Shown: positions 40,499-53,547 of the stretch, piece after piece | Layout: each line of letters opens with the position of its first letter | Position numbering within the stretch: position 1 is the stretch's first letter | NCBI GenBank assembly: GCA_017469845.1 | Contig: JAFUFP010000011.1 | Location: 62,001-126,000, forward strand | Direction: 5' to 3' | DNA from: Bacteroidales bacterium | GTDB taxonomy: Bacteria > Bacteroidota > Bacteroidia > Bacteroidales > UBA932 | Length of the DNA: 64,000 bases | The notes under the pieces: model-generated | The model's database searches: none | The model's input: only the letters and a program-made list of their open reading frames with translations | What the model was told of the DNA's origin: nothing | Made by a program: the position numbers and the translations under genes

Positions 40499-42175
40499 CT
40501 ACCTTCTTTCGGCGGAGGAAGCCTTTACCGCCTTTCCGGGGATTCTCTTCTGTACTGAAGAGGACTTGGTCTCAACCGCGCGGACATTGCCTCCGAAAGA
40601 GGAACGCCTTCCGACGGATGCTCCGCCCTTGACGGGAGCGGACTCTCCGCTCACGTTCTTGGCTACCGAACGTACGGCTATTCTCTTTTCAGCGGGAGCG
40701 GAAACGCTCTTGGCCGAAATTCCGGCTGAGCTTCTCTTCACCATGGTGCAAGGGAACTCGGGAACGTCATTGTATGTATAGAACTTGTCCGAATCCAGAT
40801 ATATGTCGTAATACTGCATAAGGATGAAGTTCGTCTTGTACTCCTTGTTGTTGTCCATGATGGCCGTGACGGGGCAACCCTCCACCTTTGCGGTGCCGTC
40901 TTCCTGGACGGTGGCCCTCGCTATCTTGAGTCCTTCGTCCTGGAGGAAATATGTCTCGCTTCCGGAGCGTATCTCGCCAAGAAGGAGAGTCTCGTAGTCA
41001 CCCTCATCATCGGAGTTGCTCAGAATATACTGGCTGTAGAAATACAGCTGACCCGTCATCTTGTCATATCCCGCAAGGAAATCAAGCTGATTGGGAGATG
41101 CGATGCTGGACTCCCATCCGCTGACGAGGTAATCGTAGTTGGGGTCATAGCTGTCGATCTTCACCCTGTAGGTGATCTCGGACTTGGTGGAGGAACGGTT
41201 GCCGTCGGCGTCAAGAGTATAACCCATTCCGGTTATGTCCCATTCCCCGAGCCAGGAGAGGAAGCCCTCGGTGGGATTCTCGGGATCGATGCTGAAGTCA
41301 CACTTGGCGTAATGTCCGGTAGGATTGCCGTAAGCGTCCATTCCGATGGCGTATGCCGTCCATGTATCCGCCTTGAGACGGTTGAAATCAAGGTCAATCG
41401 AACCGTAATACAGATAGTCGGAGAAGCTCTTACCTTCCTCTACCTGTCCCGCCACGAAATCTGACACATGCCAGAAGTACTCCATCAGGTCCCCTCCGAA
41501 GTTATTCTTGATGAAATCGTCGTAAGTGATGTCGACAGTGAAACTCTCGTCAGTATTCGATACGGTGGAGATCATCTCGGCGAGGACTTCCTCACCTCCG
41601 TCAACGATCACTTCCCTGCCCTTGTATGTCAAGGTCCAGTCATCGACCTCTTCCGCCTTCAGGGGTTGGGTAGTATAGCTTATCATCTGGTAAGAACCGG
41701 ACAGTTCGCCTCCGGAGGTCACGCCGAAAGCGATCGCTATCCATTCCTCCTTGCCTTCATCCCCTATATCGAAATAGGTCGTGCTGCTGCCCGAAGAAAG
41801 GACAGTGCCCTGTTTTTTGAGGGCCTCCAAATGAGCTGAAGCCGCATTGTAGGGGCTGCTCTTGTATGCGGAAGCGTAATCGGACTTCCTTATTACGTCG
41901 AGATAGTAGGTCTCGTAGTCCGAAGTTGTGAGATTGATTGCGTCAACCATGTATGTGAGACCGTCGGTGTCGATTACGGGATAGCGTCCCTCATAGGCTA
42001 TATTCCAACTGTTCTTCACAGTCATCTGGACTCCACGTGAAGGAGTTTCTTCGTCGGGATAATCACCTCCCCGTCTCCCGGTGCTGCCGTGAGAGCAGGA
42101 GGACACCGCCAGGGCGACAATACAGAGAGCCGCTACGGCTCCGAGTACCGCGGAAAATGAAAAATGCCGTTTCAT
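40499..42175 (-). CDS. Large lipoprotein of unknown function
   Basis: An exported lipoprotein of about 558 residues. The signal peptide ends in LAVSSC, with lipidation predicted at Cys. The body (residues about 45-470) is rich in Tyr, Asp, Ser and Thr and looks like a series of beta-sandwich segments, with repeated phrases such as WTLTYKGREVIVD and WTAYAIGMDAYGNPTGHY. The last 75 or so residues form a basic, Ser/Ala/Lys-rich and probably disordered tail. I do not recognise a family; surface glycan-binding lipoproteins of Bacteroidetes look similar. The start at 42175 was chosen because it gives a proper lipoprotein signal; the frame extends 27 codons upstream. Confidence 0.7.
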   Translation of the reverse strand: MKRHFSFSAVLGAVAALCIVALAVSSCSHGSTGRRGGDYPDEETPSRGVQMTVKNSWNIAYEGRYPVIDTDGLTYMVDAINLTTSDYETYYLDVIRKSDYASAYKSSPYNAASAHLEALKKQGTVLSSGSSTTYFDIGDEGKEEWIAIAFGVTSGGELSGSYQMISYTTQPLKAEEVDDWTLTYKGREVIVDGGEEVLAEMISTVSNTDESFTVDITYDDFIKNNFGGDLMEYFWHVSDFVAGQVEEGKSFSDYLYYGSIDLDFNRLKADTWTAYAIGMDAYGNPTGHYAKCDFSIDPENPTEGFLSWLGEWDITGMGYTLDADGNRSSTKSEITYRVKIDSYDPNYDYLVSGWESSIASPNQLDFLAGYDKMTGQLYFYSQYILSNSDDEGDYETLLLGEIRSGSETYFLQDEGLKIARATVQEDGTAKVEGCPVTAIMDNNKEYKTNFILMQYYDIYLDSDKFYTYNDVPEFPCTMVKRSSAGISAKSVSAPAEKRIAVRSVAKNVSGESAPVKGGASVGRRSSFGGNVRAVETKSSSVQKRIPGKAVKASSAERR

Positions 42176-42274
42176 AATATATGACAATATAAGTGGATAC
42201 TTGATGGTTCTTCGGGAAGGCATTCCCTCCCTTGACTTCATTATTGCAAACTGCATGCCTTAAAACGGCCGCCG

Positions 42275-44648: not shown

Positions 44649-44720
44649 GGGGACAGCCCCTCATCTCCAAGTATCCGCAACTTGGTATCACTCAAACAAA
44701 GCCAATTGCGGATTTTTGAC

Positions 44721-44728
44721 TATATTTG
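44721..44728 (+). promoter_or_regulatory. -7 box of the GNAT-like gene
   Basis: TATATTTG followed by C, 46 bases before the ATG at 44775. It lies inside an earlier in-frame extension, which supports the later start. Confidence 0.6.
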
Positions 44729-44774
44729 CAGACTGATTCCGGCAAACGCCGGACCGATGCCAATACTTTCCATC

Positions 44775-45917
44775 ATGCCTGATTACCGTATCATTGAAGT
44801 CACCTCCGGCAGGGACCTCAAAAGATTCATCAAATTCCCCGACGAACTGTACAGGGAATGCCCCCAATATGTGCCGGCCCTTCACGCTGACCAGAAGAAG
44901 TCCCTCACCTCCGTGTCGACACTCTCTTACTGCACACACAAGATGTGGCTCGCAGTCGATTGCGAAGGAGGGAAATCCCCTTCCAAAGCCAAAGTCGTGG
45001 GAAGGATTTGTGCGATGGTGAACCCACGCTACAACGAACTCTACGCGAAGAAGAGGGCGAGATTCGGATGGTTCGACACCATTGATGAATTCGAAGTGGC
45101 GAAGCTCCTGCTTTCGACCGCGGAGAAATGGGCCAAGGAACAGGGCATGAATGAAATCCACGGTCCCCTTTACTACAACACCCTCGGAAAGCAGGGCATG
45201 CTGGTCGAAGGCTTCGAGAACACCCCGCCTTTCAACTGCCTGTACAATTTCCCGTACTACAACGACTTCGTGACGGCGATGGGATATGAGAAGGAGTGCG
45301 AATGGCTCCAGTACAAGATGGCAGCCGACCAGGACGTAGCTGAGAAGGTGCACCGCATCTCCGACATGCTGAAGGAAAGGTACAGTCTGCATGAGGGAGA
45401 CATCGAGAAGCTGAAAAAGGACAAGACGATGGTGAAGAAGTTCTTCGACATGTACAACCAGAGCTTCGTTTCGTCCGTACACAACTTCATCCCCTTCACC
45501 GATGAGGAAATCGAGGAGGAAGCAGCATCAGTGATGAAGTTCCTCAACAACAAGACAAGCGTCATCATCCTCGACGAACACGAGGAACTCGTCGCTTTCG
45601 GAATCACCTTCCCTTCCATCTCCGAGGCCCTCAAGAAATGCAAAGGCCATCTCTTCCCCTTCGGATGGATCCATATGCTCAGAGCTCTCAAAGACCATAC
45701 GACGGTTGACCTGATGCTCAACGGAGCCGTCCCCTCATGGCAGAACAAGGGTGTCTCCGCCATCTACCATTGCGCGATGTCGAAGAGGTACAAGGAGTCC
45801 CACACCAAGTGGGCCATCGCCAACCCCCAGATCGAAAGCAACAGCGCCGTCAACGTCTGGGCGAAATACGACAACGAGCTCTTCATGAGAAGAAGGTGCT
45901 ACATAAAGGACATATAA
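44775..45917 (+). CDS. GNAT-fold family protein of unknown substrate
   Basis: A cytoplasmic protein of about 380 residues. Sequence style and length match a Bacteroidetes family usually annotated as GNAT N-acetyltransferase-like. Recognisable parts are the N-terminal FPDELYRECPQYVPALHADQKK, the central EIHGPLYYNTLGKQGMLVEGF and a C-terminal region with AIYHCAMSKRYKESHTKWAIANPQ. I see no clear acetyl-CoA loop, so the activity is uncertain. The start MPDYRIIEV at 44775 is preferred because the promoter lies just upstream; the frame is open 31 codons earlier. prfA follows after 80 bases. Confidence 0.75.
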   Translation: MPDYRIIEVTSGRDLKRFIKFPDELYRECPQYVPALHADQKKSLTSVSTLSYCTHKMWLAVDCEGGKSPSKAKVVGRICAMVNPRYNELYAKKRARFGWFDTIDEFEVAKLLLSTAEKWAKEQGMNEIHGPLYYNTLGKQGMLVEGFENTPPFNCLYNFPYYNDFVTAMGYEKECEWLQYKMAADQDVAEKVHRISDMLKERYSLHEGDIEKLKKDKTMVKKFFDMYNQSFVSSVHNFIPFTDEEIEEEAASVMKFLNNKTSVIILDEHEELVAFGITFPSISEALKKCKGHLFPFGWIHMLRALKDHTTVDLMLNGAVPSWQNKGVSAIYHCAMSKRYKESHTKWAIANPQIESNSAVNVWAKYDNELFMRRRCYIKDI

Positions 45918-47654: not shown

Positions 47655-47897
47655 CTACGACGCATCCCAACGCATGGAATACGTTCCAAGCAGCCTTGGT
47701 GATATGCGCAATTCTTCAGCAATCTTACGCCAATCTTTGATAGCATCACGAACCTCATCGACAATCTCCCTGGCTTCTTGCTCTTCAAGCATGTAATTTT
47801 CACTGGCTGAAAGGAGAGCATTGACATCCGACTGCTCTGTGTAAGAGTCGATGAGCAAACTGCAATTCTTTTCATGACCCTTACAATAATTCCTCAT
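47655..47897 (-). pseudogene. Truncated hipA remnant (C-terminal part only)
   Basis: Eighty codons follow hipB on the minus strand, overlapping its end by 17 bases in another frame. From DSYTEQSDVNALLSASENYM through EARE and DAIKDWRKIAEELRIS the sequence matches the C-terminal helices of HipA kinases. The N-terminal subdomain and the whole kinase core with its ATP-binding and catalytic residues are absent. It therefore cannot phosphorylate a target. An internal deletion of a normal hipBA pair is the simplest explanation; the 80-residue product might still be made and could bind HipB. Confidence 0.6.
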
Positions 47898-48174
47898 CCT
47901 GCAATTGTCTGCCGAGAGCGTCATCGGCCGCAAGCAACATGATATCGTTTTCCAGATTGAGCGCATACAGTACACGCGCATATATTCCCATGGATACCGT
48001 AGGATCACCATGTTCCACTTTAGAGACAGTCAGGCGAGTCACAGTTGCCCTGTCCGCTATGTCCTGCATGGACAAATGCCTGCGCTTACGCGCCAGCATG
48101 ATCTGCTGCCCCATAATTTCCATCTTCCGACTCAACGCTTGAGGCATCACCTTGCCAAAAGTCCTTTTTCCCAT
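47881..48174 (-). CDS. HipB-like XRE-family regulator
   Basis: A 97-residue helix-turn-helix protein of the HipB type. The HTH (residues about 25-75) contains MQDIADRATVTRLTVSKVEHG, with helix 3 in VTRLTVSKVE. The short tail ends DEELL. HipB proteins repress their own promoter and neutralise the HipA kinase; here hipA is only a remnant. A full promoter and a 7-bp inverted repeat over its -33 region suggest it still regulates itself. Confidence 0.85.
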   Translation of the reverse strand: MGKRTFGKVMPQALSRKMEIMGQQIMLARKRRHLSMQDIADRATVTRLTVSKVEHGDPTVSMGIYARVLYALNLENDIMLLAADDALGRQLQDEELL

Positions 48175-48229: not shown

Positions 48230-48325
48230 ATACGAGATTCCATTATAGCCTGGCTGAAATGATCAAGGCGCTCTTTATTGAGCGCCTTGAAGAGATTTGT
48301 AGCCGATAAGGGTACTGAACGGTTG

Positions 48326-48661
48326 TTATTTTTCCAATTCGAAGATCTTTTCCATCAGCCTCCATTTCGCCGTGGAAGGAGCATCAGGGTCGCATCCCTG
48401 GAACTGCGAGACATATGCCTCCCATTCCTTCTGCATGGGAAGGGTTGAAAGGCGGGCGTTGTCCTTTTCCCAATCGAAGTCGTCAACCGTATCCATTATC
48501 ATGAAGAGACGGTTCCCAAGGCGGAATATCTGCATATCCAATATCCCGACCTGTTTTATACCGTCCTGAACCACGGGCCACACTTTCGAATGGGCTTCGA
48601 CGTATTTTTCTATAAGAACCGGATCATCCTTCAGATCCAGAGTCTGGCAATACCTTTTCAT
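48326..48661 (-). CDS. DUF718 (RhaM-type) sugar mutarotase
   Basis: A small dimeric-type mutarotase (111 residues) of the L-rhamnose mutarotase family, which interconverts alpha and beta anomers of deoxysugars. YVEAHSKVWP carries the Tyr and catalytic His equivalents, LGNRLFMIMD is the central strand and MQKEWEAYVSQF supplies the conserved Trp. One Tyr of E. coli RhaM is not conserved, a variant common in Bacteroidetes, where some members act on L-fucose. It lies three bases after the nucleotidyltransferase/kinase gene, so the two are co-translated. A sugar anomer made here would be the direct substrate of that kinase. Confidence 0.85.
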   Translation of the reverse strand: MKRYCQTLDLKDDPVLIEKYVEAHSKVWPVVQDGIKQVGILDMQIFRLGNRLFMIMDTVDDFDWEKDNARLSTLPMQKEWEAYVSQFQGCDPDAPSTAKWRLMEKIFELEK

Positions 48662-48664
48662 GAT

Positions 48665-49873
48665 TTAACGTCTTATGGTAAGAGGAATCGCACCTTCGGG
48701 GAAAGCATCCCTTCCGGAGCACACGATGGCAAGGTAACCGCCCCCGCCGGCTCCCGGCATCTTCCATGCGAGCACCCCATCCATGGCGCTGTACTTGTCG
48801 ATATATTCCTGAACGGAAGAAAGGTATCCGCTGCCGGGCTGAGGTTTCATGCCGGAAGGATTGACCATCCCTGGGAACATCGCTACTTGGGCATCGAAAG
48901 AAGCTCTGTAAGCAGATGCGAAGCCTTCCAGATCCTTCGCCATAATAGCGTTCCAACAATCATCTGCAGCCTTTGCCAGAGCCTTCACCTTTTCGGAAGT
49001 TATGTCCTTCCCTTCGACAACGGAACATCCCTTCTGACGGGGAAACATCGGAATCATGCAAAGGTGATCCTCGAGCCAGGAAAGTACCCCCTCATCATAG
49101 CAGGATTCAATCTTTTCGGGCCAGAAGTGACCGTTGTACCAATGACGTACAAGTCCCGGCATGCAGATTCCTATCGCATCCTGCGCACCGGAAATGATGC
49201 CGTCGGTACGTTCAGGTTCATTCTCCACACAGAACACCAGACGGGCGAGCATCTCGGGATCCATTTGGGGAAGTTTCTGAGGCCAGATCTTGCGGATCAT
49301 GTTGCGGGTGCTTGTCGATAGACCGCACCTCTCCCTCACCTCGAAATCAGGCTCCAAAGAAATAGTTATCGCCCATCCCGGAGCATAGCATGAAACATAA
49401 GGCTGGTCGATCCAGGTCCCGGCAAGGTCCAATCTGGTCGGAATCCTGCATGTCAGGTTCTTGAGGTCGGTACTTGAACGGGCCTCGAGTCCTTCCTTGG
49501 GAAGACGCTTCAGGACCACGTACTCGATTCCTCGGCTGCGGCAGAATTCTTCCTTCTCGGGGGTTGAGCCGTCTTCATTGACGACGAAGATGTCGGGACG
49601 GACCCTGTCCACCGTCGGGACGAAGTCCATCACACCCGACCCCTCGTTTATGAAGGCGTCACGGACGTATCTGATGCTCTTCACCATAAAAAGACGTTCG
49701 TCCTGTCCGTACAGGGGTTTGTGGTGCTTGTAACCGAGAATCGTGGAATCGCTTCCGATTCCGACATACAGGTCACCGTATTGTGAGGCCTGTCGGAAAA
49801 ACTCCACATGCCCGCTGTGCAGAAGATCGTAGCATCCGCTGACGAACACTTTCTTGACTTGTCCTGAATCCAT
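48665..49873 (-). CDS. Fused HIGH-superfamily nucleotidyltransferase and GHMP sugar kinase
   Basis: A 402-residue two-domain protein. Residues about 6-138 form a cytidylyl/adenylyltransferase domain with the HxGH motif in SGCYDLLHSGHVEF and a GLEARSST loop. Residues about 142-402 form a GHMP kinase: motif 1 RIPTRLDLAGTWIDQP, motif 2 CGLSTSTRN and motif 3 KMPGAGGGGYLAIV. Motif 1 resembles the kinase half of FKP (L-fucokinase/GDP-fucose pyrophosphorylase) and HddA. The likely work is phosphorylation of a free sugar at C1, then transfer of a nucleotide to give an NDP-sugar. It follows wzz in the export operon (87-base gap with only a weak hairpin). The sugar and nucleotide are unknown. Confidence 0.8.
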   Translation of the reverse strand: MDSGQVKKVFVSGCYDLLHSGHVEFFRQASQYGDLYVGIGSDSTILGYKHHKPLYGQDERLFMVKSIRYVRDAFINEGSGVMDFVPTVDRVRPDIFVVNEDGSTPEKEEFCRSRGIEYVVLKRLPKEGLEARSSTDLKNLTCRIPTRLDLAGTWIDQPYVSCYAPGWAITISLEPDFEVRERCGLSTSTRNMIRKIWPQKLPQMDPEMLARLVFCVENEPERTDGIISGAQDAIGICMPGLVRHWYNGHFWPEKIESCYDEGVLSWLEDHLCMIPMFPRQKGCSVVEGKDITSEKVKALAKAADDCWNAIMAKDLEGFASAYRASFDAQVAMFPGMVNPSGMKPQPGSGYLSSVQEYIDKYSAMDGVLAWKMPGAGGGGYLAIVCSGRDAFPEGAIPLTIRR

Positions 49874-49960: not shown

Positions 49961-51133
49961 TTATGCCTTGGTCTTGGCGGCTTTTTCCTGGGCGCGTTCT
50001 TCATCAACTGTAGTCATAGACTCCTTGAGAGAAGACCAGAACGCTTTCCAAAGGTCTCTTCCGAATCCCGCCCAGCAGCAGGAGAGGAAGAATCCTATGA
50101 ATCCGAAAAGTATGACGCGCATCATTTTGCTCTTCGTGGGGCCCAAGGGAGTCGATGCCGGCTGGATGACGGCATAGACGGGTTTCTCTTCCTGGATCTT
50201 GGCCTTGGCCAGTTCCCTCTGCTGGGCCATCTGGGAATATATCTGGCTAGTTACGTTGACTTCAGTCTGAAGTCTCTGACGCTCGCTGCTGCCGGCCTGA
50301 GTCACTATGTTCCTTCCGGAATCAACGCTCCTGGCATAAGCATCTTGTGCCTTCTCCCAATTGGCCTTCGCCTCTTCGGCGAGCTTGACGTAATGATTGT
50401 AATCATCAGTCGCCTTCTTGGTCCTGTACTCGACGAAATAAGTCTGGAGAGCCTTGCATACGGTATCGGCCAACTGGTAGGAGAAAGTCCTGTCGTCGGT
50501 CACCACCGATATTGATGTCACACCGTTCTTGCTGTCAACTTCGGCCGTTATGGCTTCACGAAGTGCTCTGACCGTCCTGTTCTGGTCTCCGGTCAGCCTC
50601 GTCAAGTCCACGGGGAGTACCAACTCTTCCACCTCATCGTTACCGAACAATTTGGCGAGCCCCTTCTTGGGGTTGTCCCTTCCGGAGAAATGGTCGTAGA
50701 CCGTAACGGGAGTTGCCACAACGCCTTCGGCCTTGGCCTCTTCCGAAACATAAGGGACCAGCTCAACGCCAAAAAGGTTGACAAGGAAAGGGGTGGACTT
50801 GCAGATGTTCGGGAAGAGGGATATGTTGAGGGCGTCTGTTCCTGCGGCCAGCTGTGCATTGCCGAGACCCAGAAGGCTGGTTATGCTGTTGAGGCTTCCT
50901 GATGATCCTCTCTGGGCAAGCTCCGGGGCCAGGGTGACCGTGGCTTGGTACTCTTTCTTCATAGTCATGGCTGAGATTATTCCCAGCACGCCGAAAATGA
51001 AGCAGAAAACGAAGATGAACTTCCAACTCTTCAAGACCTTCGCGATGATTCCCATCCAATCGATGTGGAGGCCCTCGTCGCTCAGATCGTCGAACTCGTC
51101 GTAGTCGTCGTATTTGCGGTATTCCTCACTCAT
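49961..51133 (-). CDS. Wzz-family chain length determinant protein
   Basis: An inner-membrane polysaccharide copolymerase (390 residues) that sets chain length of exported polysaccharide. It has an acidic cytoplasmic N-terminus, a first helix at about 36-57 (FIFVFCFIFGVLGIISAM) and a long periplasmic coiled-coil region. The second helix is near 342-362, preceded by the proline-rich VIQPASTPLGPTKSKM typical of Wzz. There is no fused tyrosine kinase domain. It starts eight bases after the SLBB exporter gene. Confidence 0.92.
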   Translation of the reverse strand: MSEEYRKYDDYDEFDDLSDEGLHIDWMGIIAKVLKSWKFIFVFCFIFGVLGIISAMTMKKEYQATVTLAPELAQRGSSGSLNSITSLLGLGNAQLAAGTDALNISLFPNICKSTPFLVNLFGVELVPYVSEEAKAEGVVATPVTVYDHFSGRDNPKKGLAKLFGNDEVEELVLPVDLTRLTGDQNRTVRALREAITAEVDSKNGVTSISVVTDDRTFSYQLADTVCKALQTYFVEYRTKKATDDYNHYVKLAEEAKANWEKAQDAYARSVDSGRNIVTQAGSSERQRLQTEVNVTSQIYSQMAQQRELAKAKIQEEKPVYAVIQPASTPLGPTKSKMMRVILFGFIGFFLSCCWAGFGRDLWKAFWSSLKESMTTVDEERAQEKAAKTKA

Positions 51134-51141
51134 GACCGGTC

Positions 51142-53547
51142 CTATTTAATTCTTGAAATCATTGTCGCGATGGATGCGGCCATCGTTCCGAGAGAAGCCG
51201 CTGTAGTAGCGTAACCCATTATGTCGCCGGCATTAGCATTTTCCCTAGGTGCCTTGGTGGGAACAACAATCTCGGCTCCGGGAGTGACCTTCGTCCAGCT
51301 GTGCAGTCTCTTTACTGATCCGTTGAGGCTGATCACGTACGCCTTGTTGCGCTTGGCCCTCGGGGCATATCCTCCGCAGCTGGCGATATAATCGGCTCCT
51401 GTCATCTTGGGATCATAAGTCACCACGTTGGGCATCATCACGCTTCCGGTAATCCTCACGGTGCTGGTTCTGACGGGAACGGTGACGTAGTCCCCTTCCT
51501 TGAGGATGACGTCGTAATCACCTCCGGGATTTTCGATGGCGGCTTTAAGGTCGATGGCGACGGGATAATCTTCGGCGATAGAGACGGAAAGGTCGGTTTC
51601 GTCGGTGACTTTGTACAGGGCCCTCCTTGCGTCAGCGCTCTGTCTGCGTTCGGCTTCAGAAGACCGCCTCATAAGACGGGCGCCCTCGAGGTAAGCGAAC
51701 GAGGTGAAACCTCCCGCCATGTTGACAAGGTCGGAAAGCCTGTTTTCACGTCCGGTCATGGAGAAAGTTCCGGGGAAGTTCACTTCACCTGCTATGGTGA
51801 AATGCCTCTGGGTGCTGTATGAAGGACTCCTGTGTACAGTAACCTCATCGTAGGGCTGCAGAAGGAATCCCCCCTCACCGTCATCAACGAGTCCGTTCTT
51901 TATCGGGAACGAGAAAAGTTGTGACACTTCCGACTGGGCTGTCGTGCCCTCATTGTCCAGGAATCTTCTCGAAACGTCAACCCTGGAAACGGAAGCACCC
52001 CTACGGAGACCGCCGGCAAGGATGATGAGGTCCTCGACGGTAGTGTTCTCAGCGAAAGGATAAGTACCCGGATTGGCGACCAGACCGTCAATCGTGAATG
52101 AGCCGTGCTCACTCATTTCGTACTGGCTGGCGATATGGAGCTCATCGTTGTTCTTCAGGGCTATGTCCTTCTTTCCTGACATGATGTCATTGAGGTTCAT
52201 GGAAATCACCTCCATGGTCTTGTCCTCATGCTCACGGTGGAGAACGGCCCTACCCATGAAAGCGTCGGGAAGAAGTCCACCCGCGGCGTTGATGAGTTCC
52301 CTGACGGTATGGATTTCGTCACCGAGTTCGTAAACTGAAGGGCGGTAGACGGATCCCACGATTGAAATCTTGTTCTCGAAAAGGGAGAAAAGTCCGCCCA
52401 CCTGGATTTCATCACCATTCTTCAGCTGGAAGGAATCGTACTCGGACTCGGGTACGGTCTTCACCTCGTAGCTCTTTCCGCTCTGGCGGGTGACGGTCAG
52501 GCTCTCGGTGTATGCGCCATAGGCGAAGCCTCCGGCATAGTTCAGGAGGTCGGTGATGGTCTCACCTTCCTTCATCTCGAAGTACATAGGACGTTTGAGC
52601 TGTCCGTCAGCCTTCACCATGACCTTGTAAGGACGGACAAGGATGACGTCACCTTCCTCGAGACGGAGGTCGCTCTTGCGGTTACCGTTTGTAAGGAAGT
52701 CATAGACGTCCACCGAAGCCACTGTCTTTCCGTTGCGGACGACGCTGATGTCACGCATGCTACCGGGCTCGACGACACCGCCGGCCCTGTATAGGGCATG
52801 GAAGACGGTAGCGAAGGAAGAGAGTGTGAATGTTCCGGGATTGTGCACATCTCCGAGGATGTTGACCTGGATGGTCCTTATCTGTCCGAGGGAAACGCGG
52901 ATGTCGGATTCGTTATCACCGAGGCCGCCGTAAACGGAAGCGAGACGCCTCTTGAGGTACGAATTCGCCTCGTTGATCGTCATGCCGTTGAGATATATGG
53001 GGCCGAGGTATTCGGTGTTGATGCTGCCTTCGGGGGAGATATGTCCGCGGATCGTTTTCTGCTCACGTCCGAAAATCTCTATAATGACCTCATCTCCGGG
53101 GCCCAGACGGTAATTGGTCGGGGTGGCGAGATTCTCGCTGGGGGCGAAGTTGAGGTTACGGTTACGGAAGATGTCCCTTCCGTATACGGTAAGGGCGTCT
53201 GAAACCGTCTCCGGCTCGTACGAGGTAGCGGTATCGGGAATTTCCTCGTTGCCGTAGAGAGTGTGTCCCCCTCCTGAAGCCGTGGCAGCCACGTTGTCCG
53301 AATCCTGCTGCTCGCGGTAAAGCCTTTCAACCCTTCTCACCTGGGCTTCGTCAACACCTCTGAGGGCCAAAGTTCTGGCAATTTCATTCTCGTCGCGTCC
53401 TTCCGAGACGGCCTGCTTCACGAACTCGAGGACCTGCTCATCGGTCATCGTGCCCTGGGCGTAAGAAGCCCCGCCGACACACAGAAGGCACACGGCCAAC
53501 ATTGTCATCCTTCTTCTGAACATATGCGATATAGATACTTTTTTCAC
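51142..53547 (-). CDS. SLBB-domain polysaccharide export protein (Wza-like)
   Basis: An outer-membrane-associated exporter (801 residues) for capsule or exopolysaccharide. After a signal peptide (LAVCLLCVGGASYA) and a helical region comes the Poly_export domain (YRLGPGDEVIIEIFG, near residue 148). Roughly six SLBB repeats follow, for example VNILGDVHNPGTFTL, ISIVGSVYRPSVYEL and FTIDGLVANPGTYPF. The C-terminus has a hydrophobic segment near 780. No lipobox Cys is seen, unlike E. coli Wza. It is the first gene of the operon with wzz, the nucleotidyltransferase/kinase and the mutarotase, behind a complete promoter. Confidence 0.92.
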   Translation of the reverse strand: MKKVSISHMFRRRMTMLAVCLLCVGGASYAQGTMTDEQVLEFVKQAVSEGRDENEIARTLALRGVDEAQVRRVERLYREQQDSDNVAATASGGGHTLYGNEEIPDTATSYEPETVSDALTVYGRDIFRNRNLNFAPSENLATPTNYRLGPGDEVIIEIFGREQKTIRGHISPEGSINTEYLGPIYLNGMTINEANSYLKRRLASVYGGLGDNESDIRVSLGQIRTIQVNILGDVHNPGTFTLSSFATVFHALYRAGGVVEPGSMRDISVVRNGKTVASVDVYDFLTNGNRKSDLRLEEGDVILVRPYKVMVKADGQLKRPMYFEMKEGETITDLLNYAGGFAYGAYTESLTVTRQSGKSYEVKTVPESEYDSFQLKNGDEIQVGGLFSLFENKISIVGSVYRPSVYELGDEIHTVRELINAAGGLLPDAFMGRAVLHREHEDKTMEVISMNLNDIMSGKKDIALKNNDELHIASQYEMSEHGSFTIDGLVANPGTYPFAENTTVEDLIILAGGLRRGASVSRVDVSRRFLDNEGTTAQSEVSQLFSFPIKNGLVDDGEGGFLLQPYDEVTVHRSPSYSTQRHFTIAGEVNFPGTFSMTGRENRLSDLVNMAGGFTSFAYLEGARLMRRSSEAERRQSADARRALYKVTDETDLSVSIAEDYPVAIDLKAAIENPGGDYDVILKEGDYVTVPVRTSTVRITGSVMMPNVVTYDPKMTGADYIASCGGYAPRAKRNKAYVISLNGSVKRLHSWTKVTPGAEIVVPTKAPRENANAGDIMGYATTAASLGTMAASIATMISRIK

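Follow-up and report, generated by a model that had tools for sequence, protein, structure and literature searches.

The window, by which we mean the whole stretch of 64,000 nucleotides analysed, encodes a 402-residue fusion of a HIGH-superfamily nucleotidyltransferase with a compact GHMP-fold kinase. We consider it fairly probable that this protein salvages L-fucose in two enzymatic steps, as a compact functional equivalent of FKP that makes NDP-L-fucose. In bacteria, FKP is the known way to turn free fucose into activated fucose. In the pathway that we propose, alpha-L-fucosidases would release free L-fucose, FucP would import it and a RhaM-family mutarotase would convert it to the reactive anomer; the GHMP-fold domain, with the fucose site and catalytic base of FKP, would phosphorylate C1 and the TagD-like domain would add a nucleotide to the sugar phosphate. 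The resulting NDP-L-fucose would feed a capsule or exopolysaccharide handled by the neighbouring export genes. Such a salvage logic (mutarotase, anomeric kinase, nucleotidyltransferase) had been suggested in an earlier note on this DNA. It is supported by the gene company and the conserved active site, from which we infer the kinase and nucleotidyltransferase activities, the L-fucose substrate, the direction of the pathway and the specificity of the mutarotase. The features of the locus are:

48665 to 49873, minus strand: fusion of 402 aa, HIGH-superfamily nucleotidyltransferase plus compact GHMP-fold kinase (open reading frame and homologues)
49451 to 49873, minus strand: N-terminal nucleotidyltransferase domain, residues 1-141 (Pfam CTP_transf_like and TagD fold)
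49808 to 49819, minus strand: HSGH (HxGH) catalytic motif, residues 19-22 (H19, G21 and H22 invariant, n=101)
48665 to 49450, minus strand: C-terminal compact GHMP kinase domain, residues 142-402 (WcbL 4usk, Z 23.4; FKP 9iip, Z 21.6)
49400 to 49441, minus strand: kinase motif 1 PTRLDLAGTWIDQP, residues 145-158 (R147, W154 and D156 equivalent to FKP R592, W599 and D601; invariant, n=101)
49304 to 49330, minus strand: altered motif 2 RCGLSTSTR, residues 182-190 (S188 equivalent to the FKP Mg ligand S719; new invariant R182 and R190)
49178 to 49192, minus strand: SGAQD, residues 228-232 (Q231 and D232 equivalent to FKP Q761 and the general base D762; invariant, n=101)
48734 to 48754, minus strand: motif 3 GAGGGGY, residues 374-380 (alignment)
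48326 to 48661, minus strand: RhaM/DUF718-family mutarotase of 111 aa, putative L-fucose mutarotase (PF05336 and gene company)
49961 to 51133, minus strand: Wzz-type chain-length determinant (PF02706 just over the cut-off, GNVR just under)
51142 to 53547, minus strand: SLBB / polysaccharide export outer-membrane protein, Wza-like (PF02563, 5.1e-16; SLBB repeats, 2.4e-55)

The order of transcription is the SLBB/Poly_export gene, the Wzz-type gene, a gap of 87 bp, the fusion, three bases and the mutarotase. The fusion and the DUF718 mutarotase do lie three bases apart on the minus strand, as had been claimed, each in its own open reading frame, and the SLBB-Wzz export genes described upstream were confirmed by Pfam. 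The mutarotase itself is a clear rhaM match (PF05336, E 1.1e-29, 103.2 bits against a cut-off of 23.4). A scan for promoters and terminators at the locus found no more sites than in shuffled sequences. Right after the mutarotase stop there is an inverted repeat (AAGGCGCTC-N6-GAGCGCCTT, window positions 48262-48290, without a T-run) that may terminate the transcript. Beyond it, at 47655-48174 on the same strand, a HipB-like HTH gene (47881-48174) is followed by an overlapping short open reading frame (47655-48011) that had no Pfam match and resembles the tail of HipA by eye; from sequence, this is possibly a decayed hipBA pair. Two other reading frames of the window, 44682-45917 (plus strand, 411 aa) and 40499-42256 (minus strand, 585 aa), had no Pfam match at E 0.01.

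Pfam assigns residues 11-138 of the fusion to CTP_transf_like (PF01467, E 5.5e-12, 46.5 bits against a cut-off of 21). The kinase half by itself stays under the cut-off (GHMP_kinases_C, E 0.068); PF00288 (GHMP_kinases_N) had no match in the fusion, which is absent from the four places of the window's genome where that domain was found. Its fold became visible with a profile made from 13 homologues, which matched the FKP fucokinase domain (E 7.6e-12) and the heptose kinase 3k85 (E 2.7e-7) in the PDB. Structure prediction, one of the checks proposed beforehand, gave an AlphaFold2 model (82 homologues as input, mean pLDDT 91, the linker at about 127-142 being the weakest internal region) with a TagD-like nucleotidyltransferase and a GHMP kinase fold. 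Within the model, residues 6-141 match the cytidylyltransferase TagD (1coz, Z 17.7, rmsd 2.0 over 125 residues), while residues 142-402 match WcbL (4usk, Z 23.4, rmsd 3.0, 241 residues aligned), the FKP fucokinase (9iip, Z 21.6, rmsd 2.8, 228 aligned) and galactokinases (Z 17-20), with Z of 17-23 across many GHMP kinases. The joining of a HIGH-type nucleotidyltransferase to a GHMP kinase is therefore upheld, by Pfam for the first half and by the model fold for both, as is the replacement of FKP's own nucleotidyltransferase domain by a small TagD-type one. As modelled, the kinase half has the GHMP fold with motif 3 but a deviant motif 2, and only two strands of the kinase (146-151 and 166-173) precede the motif-2 helix (187-196). 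The profile-profile alignment (hhalign) of the fusion with FKP and HddA covered only residues 228-390 (Prob 98), so that the equivalences in motifs 1 and 2 rest on MAFFT, on the HMMER match over motif 1 and on the fold comparison.

A way to read the kinase half is to compare it, residue by residue, with FKP. There, the phosphate in transfer is stabilised by R592 and the fucose ring is stacked on by W599; the C3- and C4-hydroxyls are bound by D601, the C3-hydroxyl also by T602 and the C4-hydroxyl also by Q761, with Q761 and D601 reading the galacto configuration at C4. The catalytic base is proposed to be D762, Mg2+ is held by S719 and activity requires E751; phosphate is bound by the backbone nitrogens of G717 and A900, the triphosphate by the loop 712-720, and the nucleobase, as modelled, by D644, M645, P666, I669 and L722 (PMC11982464). 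Work on a second FKP confirmed the importance of the arginine and found the base aspartate to be less than essential (PMC12732313). Among 101 distinct fusion sequences, with pairwise identities down to 36%, residues R147, W154, D156, S188, E217, G229, Q231 and D232 are invariant (101/101); these are the equivalents of FKP R592, W599, D601, E751, G759, Q761, D762 and the Mg ligand S719. A900 is kept in 100. The resemblance of motif 1 to FKP pointed out in the earlier note thus holds for R147, W154 and D156 throughout the family. All the fucose-contacting side chains of FKP are invariant in the 101 fusions except the C3-hydroxyl ligand T602, which is always Gln. In the phosphate loop, Arg stands at the position of G713 throughout, and Ser or Ala at that of G717. 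The consensus of motif 2 (n=101) is R[CS]G[LM][SA][TS]S[TS]R, flanked by the invariant R182 and R190, the latter being an extra arginine.

The distance from the motif 1 arginine to the motif 2 glycine (R147 to G184) is 37 residues in every one of the 101 fusions. In comparison, four distinct FKPs have 123, four HddA kinases 100-117 and the four proteins with GHMP_kinases_N that the genome of the window encodes 81-124. Such a difference from ordinary GHMP kinases means that the stretch with the adenine-pocket residues of FKP is gone, and indeed the segment carrying D644, M645, P666 and I669 is absent in 101/101. Judging by the alignment, the loss of this segment is a fixed trait of a family that has retained the sugar site and the residues for the chemistry. 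The earlier note had regarded a loss of ATP-binding residues as damaging to its proposal; the outcome is divided, with the adenine-pocket segment deleted in all the sequences and the catalytic residues and the Mg2+ serine kept.

This absence, the failure to detect PF00288 and the presence of HddA-type kinases in some fusion genomes would all suit a pseudokinase, i.e., a GHMP domain that binds fucose or fucose-1-phosphate while the sugar phosphate comes from a different kinase and catalysis is left to the nucleotidyltransferase alone. We consider this unlikely, because a domain devoted to binding would not need the general base D232, the transition-state R147, the Mg ligand S188 and E217, all of them invariant, and no recurrent kinase gene was noticed beside the fusion. 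For a catalytically active L-fucose kinase the default phosphoryl donor is ATP, gripped mainly by its phosphates and perhaps helped by the nucleotidyltransferase domain or a partner subunit. The donor could instead be pyrophosphate (or polyphosphate), the kinase half no longer using ATP; this idea, which we hold to be a long shot, comes from the missing adenine-pocket segment, the largely kept phosphate loop and the two invariant arginines added beside it. Since the nucleotidyltransferase step releases pyrophosphate, the two halves would then form a closed loop, with the net reaction L-fucose + NTP -> NDP-L-fucose + Pi and one ATP spared.

The nucleotidyltransferase half conserves HxGH, D42, K49 and R60 in the 101 fusions. 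The CTP signature of cytidylyltransferases is RTEG(I/V)ST(S/T) (PMC6060094); it is not kept in the fusion, which has instead R123, eight residues and R132-S-S/T-T. Neither this signature nor the papers on PntC and PfCCT pointed to one base: GTP would fit the fucosyltransferases and Gmd/Fcl, and the nearest nucleotidyltransferase structures use CTP. If the base is not guanine, the product would be a new form of activated fucose. A literature search found nothing relevant on CDP-, ADP- or dTDP-fucose, or on PPi-dependent GHMP kinases.

The genes around the fusion speak for fucose. We collected 97 fusion loci (mostly MAG-based, with open reading frames called by a simple script), 80 from a scan of genome contigs and the remainder from other searches, and counted neighbours within 5 kb on the same strand. 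A FucP-type L-fucose symporter was near the fusion in 45/97 loci, RhaM also in 45/97, which agrees with the co-occurrence with DUF718 that the earlier note had proposed to look for, and Gmd and Fcl in 30/97 each. At least one of the four partners was found in 69/97; the other 28 had none within 5 kb, partly from contig ends. These counts are not independent, since the search for loci used peptides conserved in the family itself and the loci share phylogenetic ancestry. With NCBIfam models, the cluster representatives of FucP (4e-175) and Gmd were over the cut-off and that of Fcl reached 481 bits against a cut-off of 500. A fusion-FucP-RhaM operon occurs in four genomes of other orders or classes (G353, G252, G267 and G216), in the last two of them between two GH29 alpha-L-fucosidase genes. 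FucP adjoins the fusion, with GH29 in the same region, in G309 and G108, and in the more distant G453 the order is an NAD-dependent sugar epimerase, the fusion and then Gmd and Fcl.

Over 101 genomes, FucP over the cut-off was present in 14/15 fusion-bearing genomes vs 21/86 other relatives (Fisher p 5e-7, ignoring phylogeny) and RhaM in 11/15 vs 15/86 (p 3e-5, likewise ignoring phylogeny). FKP over its cut-off was rare, in 1/15 genomes with the fusion and 4/86 without it, numbers too small to show that the fusion replaces FKP by mutual exclusion. At the window locus, RhaM is the sole adjacent partner among FucP, RhaM, Gmd, Fcl and GH29, and elsewhere in the same genome there are FucP (614 bits, contig C78), Gmd (C31) and three GH29 hits (C73, C56 and C7). 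Gmd was present in 19/24 fusion genomes, most of which therefore probably make GDP-fucose de novo, so that salvage would not be strictly needed. In another genome (G082, L202:7461-9258) a RhaM-family gene adjoins FucP with no fusion or FKP nearby, a pair that supports the assignment of this subgroup of RhaM as L-fucose mutarotases.

The sugar of the fusion is very probably L-fucose (or else a closely related sugar, for instance L-galactose) and not rhamnose. A heptose (HldE- or HddA-like) or some other rare sugar of the GDP-6-deoxy series would agree with the kinase half being structurally closest to the heptokinase WcbL (Z 23.4, about 2 Z from FKP), and relatives of Gmd and Fcl also modify heptoses. 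We think this quite improbable, given that FucP adjoins the fusion and that W599 and D601 of FKP have their counterparts within a WxDxP motif; in the aligned HddA kinases the sequence here is RLGLAGGGSDVSP, without tryptophan. Moreover, the HldE heptose 1-phosphate adenylyltransferase model (TIGR02199) reaches only 47.4 bits against a cut-off of 181.5. Membership of HldE is excluded by this score and by the GHMP rather than ribokinase fold. L-rhamnose, with RhaM as a rhamnose mutarotase and NDP-rhamnose as the product, is suggested by the Pfam name of the mutarotase family and is very improbable, as the window mutarotase scores 19.5 bits with the YiiL L-rhamnose mutarotase model (TIGR02625, cut-off 99.6), 80 bits too low, its FucP-adjacent relatives are also under that cut-off, the neighbours FucP, Gmd, Fcl and GH29 are all fucose genes and the kinase site matches that of FKP, in which Q761 and D601 read a galacto-configured C4-hydroxyl (PMC11982464). 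Of the "rhamnose or fucose" of the earlier note, fucose is kept for its company of FucP, Gmd, Fcl and GH29, and rhamnose is rejected on that same company and the mutarotase score.

Relatives are encoded in at least 533 stretches of public genomes, which places the fusion far beyond chance. The same domain order, which the earlier note had suggested seeking across Bacteroidetes, was found as a conserved family, chiefly in Bacteroidales and sporadically in the rest of Bacteroidota, including other families and classes. Homologues were present in 9/61 genomes searched of the window's genus (two of them cut at contig ends). Carriers include gut and rumen Bacteroidota such as Segatella copri and, within the window's genus, Candidatus Cryptobacteroides onthequi (JAGHSA010000003.1, locus L130, probably identical with contig C2 of genome G012). 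A match in a 1368-aa frame (G498) and a short N-terminal match (G690) covered the nucleotidyltransferase region only and were set aside.

Two divergent relatives deserve description. A second copy in G533 (contig C61, L193:8358-9491) is 39.5% identical to the window protein; its motif 1 is RLCIAGGWIDQP, in which C replaces D149, and its motif 3 is TGSGGGY. Next to it are RhaM, a sugar epimerase, a sodium:solute symporter and a gene resembling LacI, while a GH95 gene lies upstream; this copy is possibly a catabolic or L-galactose variant. In G066, one gene of a distant relative runs across two contigs joined by overlapping sequence (L067:2246-3337 and L068:4033-4623). It has an FKP-like RIDFAGGWTDVP plus QDQ, motif 2 GSGLSTST and a similarly short motif 1-to-2 segment, and may be an evolutionary intermediate. 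Contig C304 of this genome carries genes that we take to be KduI- and KduD-like.

If our reading is true, an independent fusion of half the size, with another nucleotidyltransferase fold, would mean that the fucose salvage step was invented twice; a 2025 phylogeny speaks for one ancestral fusion as the origin of all the FKPs known (PMC12732313). It raises the questions of where the phosphate comes from in a GHMP kinase that lacks the usual adenine-pocket segment and of whether bacteria produce activated fucose other than GDP-fucose, and the fusion could serve as a small biocatalyst for fucosylated glycans. A search of non-subscription literature found no paper describing this fusion architecture.

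FKP (NF009948; B. fragilis) is the closest known counterpart in its way of working. Both have the nucleotidyltransferase first and the GHMP fucokinase second, both have the fucose-site residues R592, W599, D601, Q761 and D762, and FKP also can adjoin FucP: in one relative (G080, L199:7301-11458) a classical FKP is followed directly by FucP beside apparent polysaccharide export genes, the arrangement seen in many loci of the fusion. However, FKP is about 950 aa long, against 402, its nucleotidyltransferase is a sugar-pyrophosphorylase domain with a left-handed beta-helix and not a TagD-like one, and it has the adenine-pocket segment (123 residues between motifs, against 37). The FKP model NF009948 gives the fusion 22.1 bits, over residues 364-386 only, against a cut-off of 721. 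The fusion is thus FKP-like in its working but no member of FKP, since it fails this score and the domain test and is without the adenine-pocket residues. The heptose kinases WcbL and HddA share with it the kinase fold, motif 3 and the QD catalytic pair; they differ by their full motif 1-to-2 segment (100-117 residues in the four HddA checked), their canonical GSGLGTSS and the lack of a tryptophan at the W599 position. TagD, CCT and ECT cytidylyltransferases have the fold and HxGH in common with the fusion and differ by their RTEG(I/V)ST(S/T). The RhaM/YiiL family (PF05336) includes the window mutarotase, which is under the YiiL equivalog cut-off, and its members near the fusion accompany FucP. 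The kinase of HldE (heptose 7-phosphate kinase / heptose 1-phosphate adenylyltransferase) has a ribokinase fold. Like the fusion, HldE joins a small HIGH-type nucleotidyltransferase to a sugar kinase, but in the opposite domain order, and the nucleotidyltransferase of the fusion is far under the HldE cut-off.
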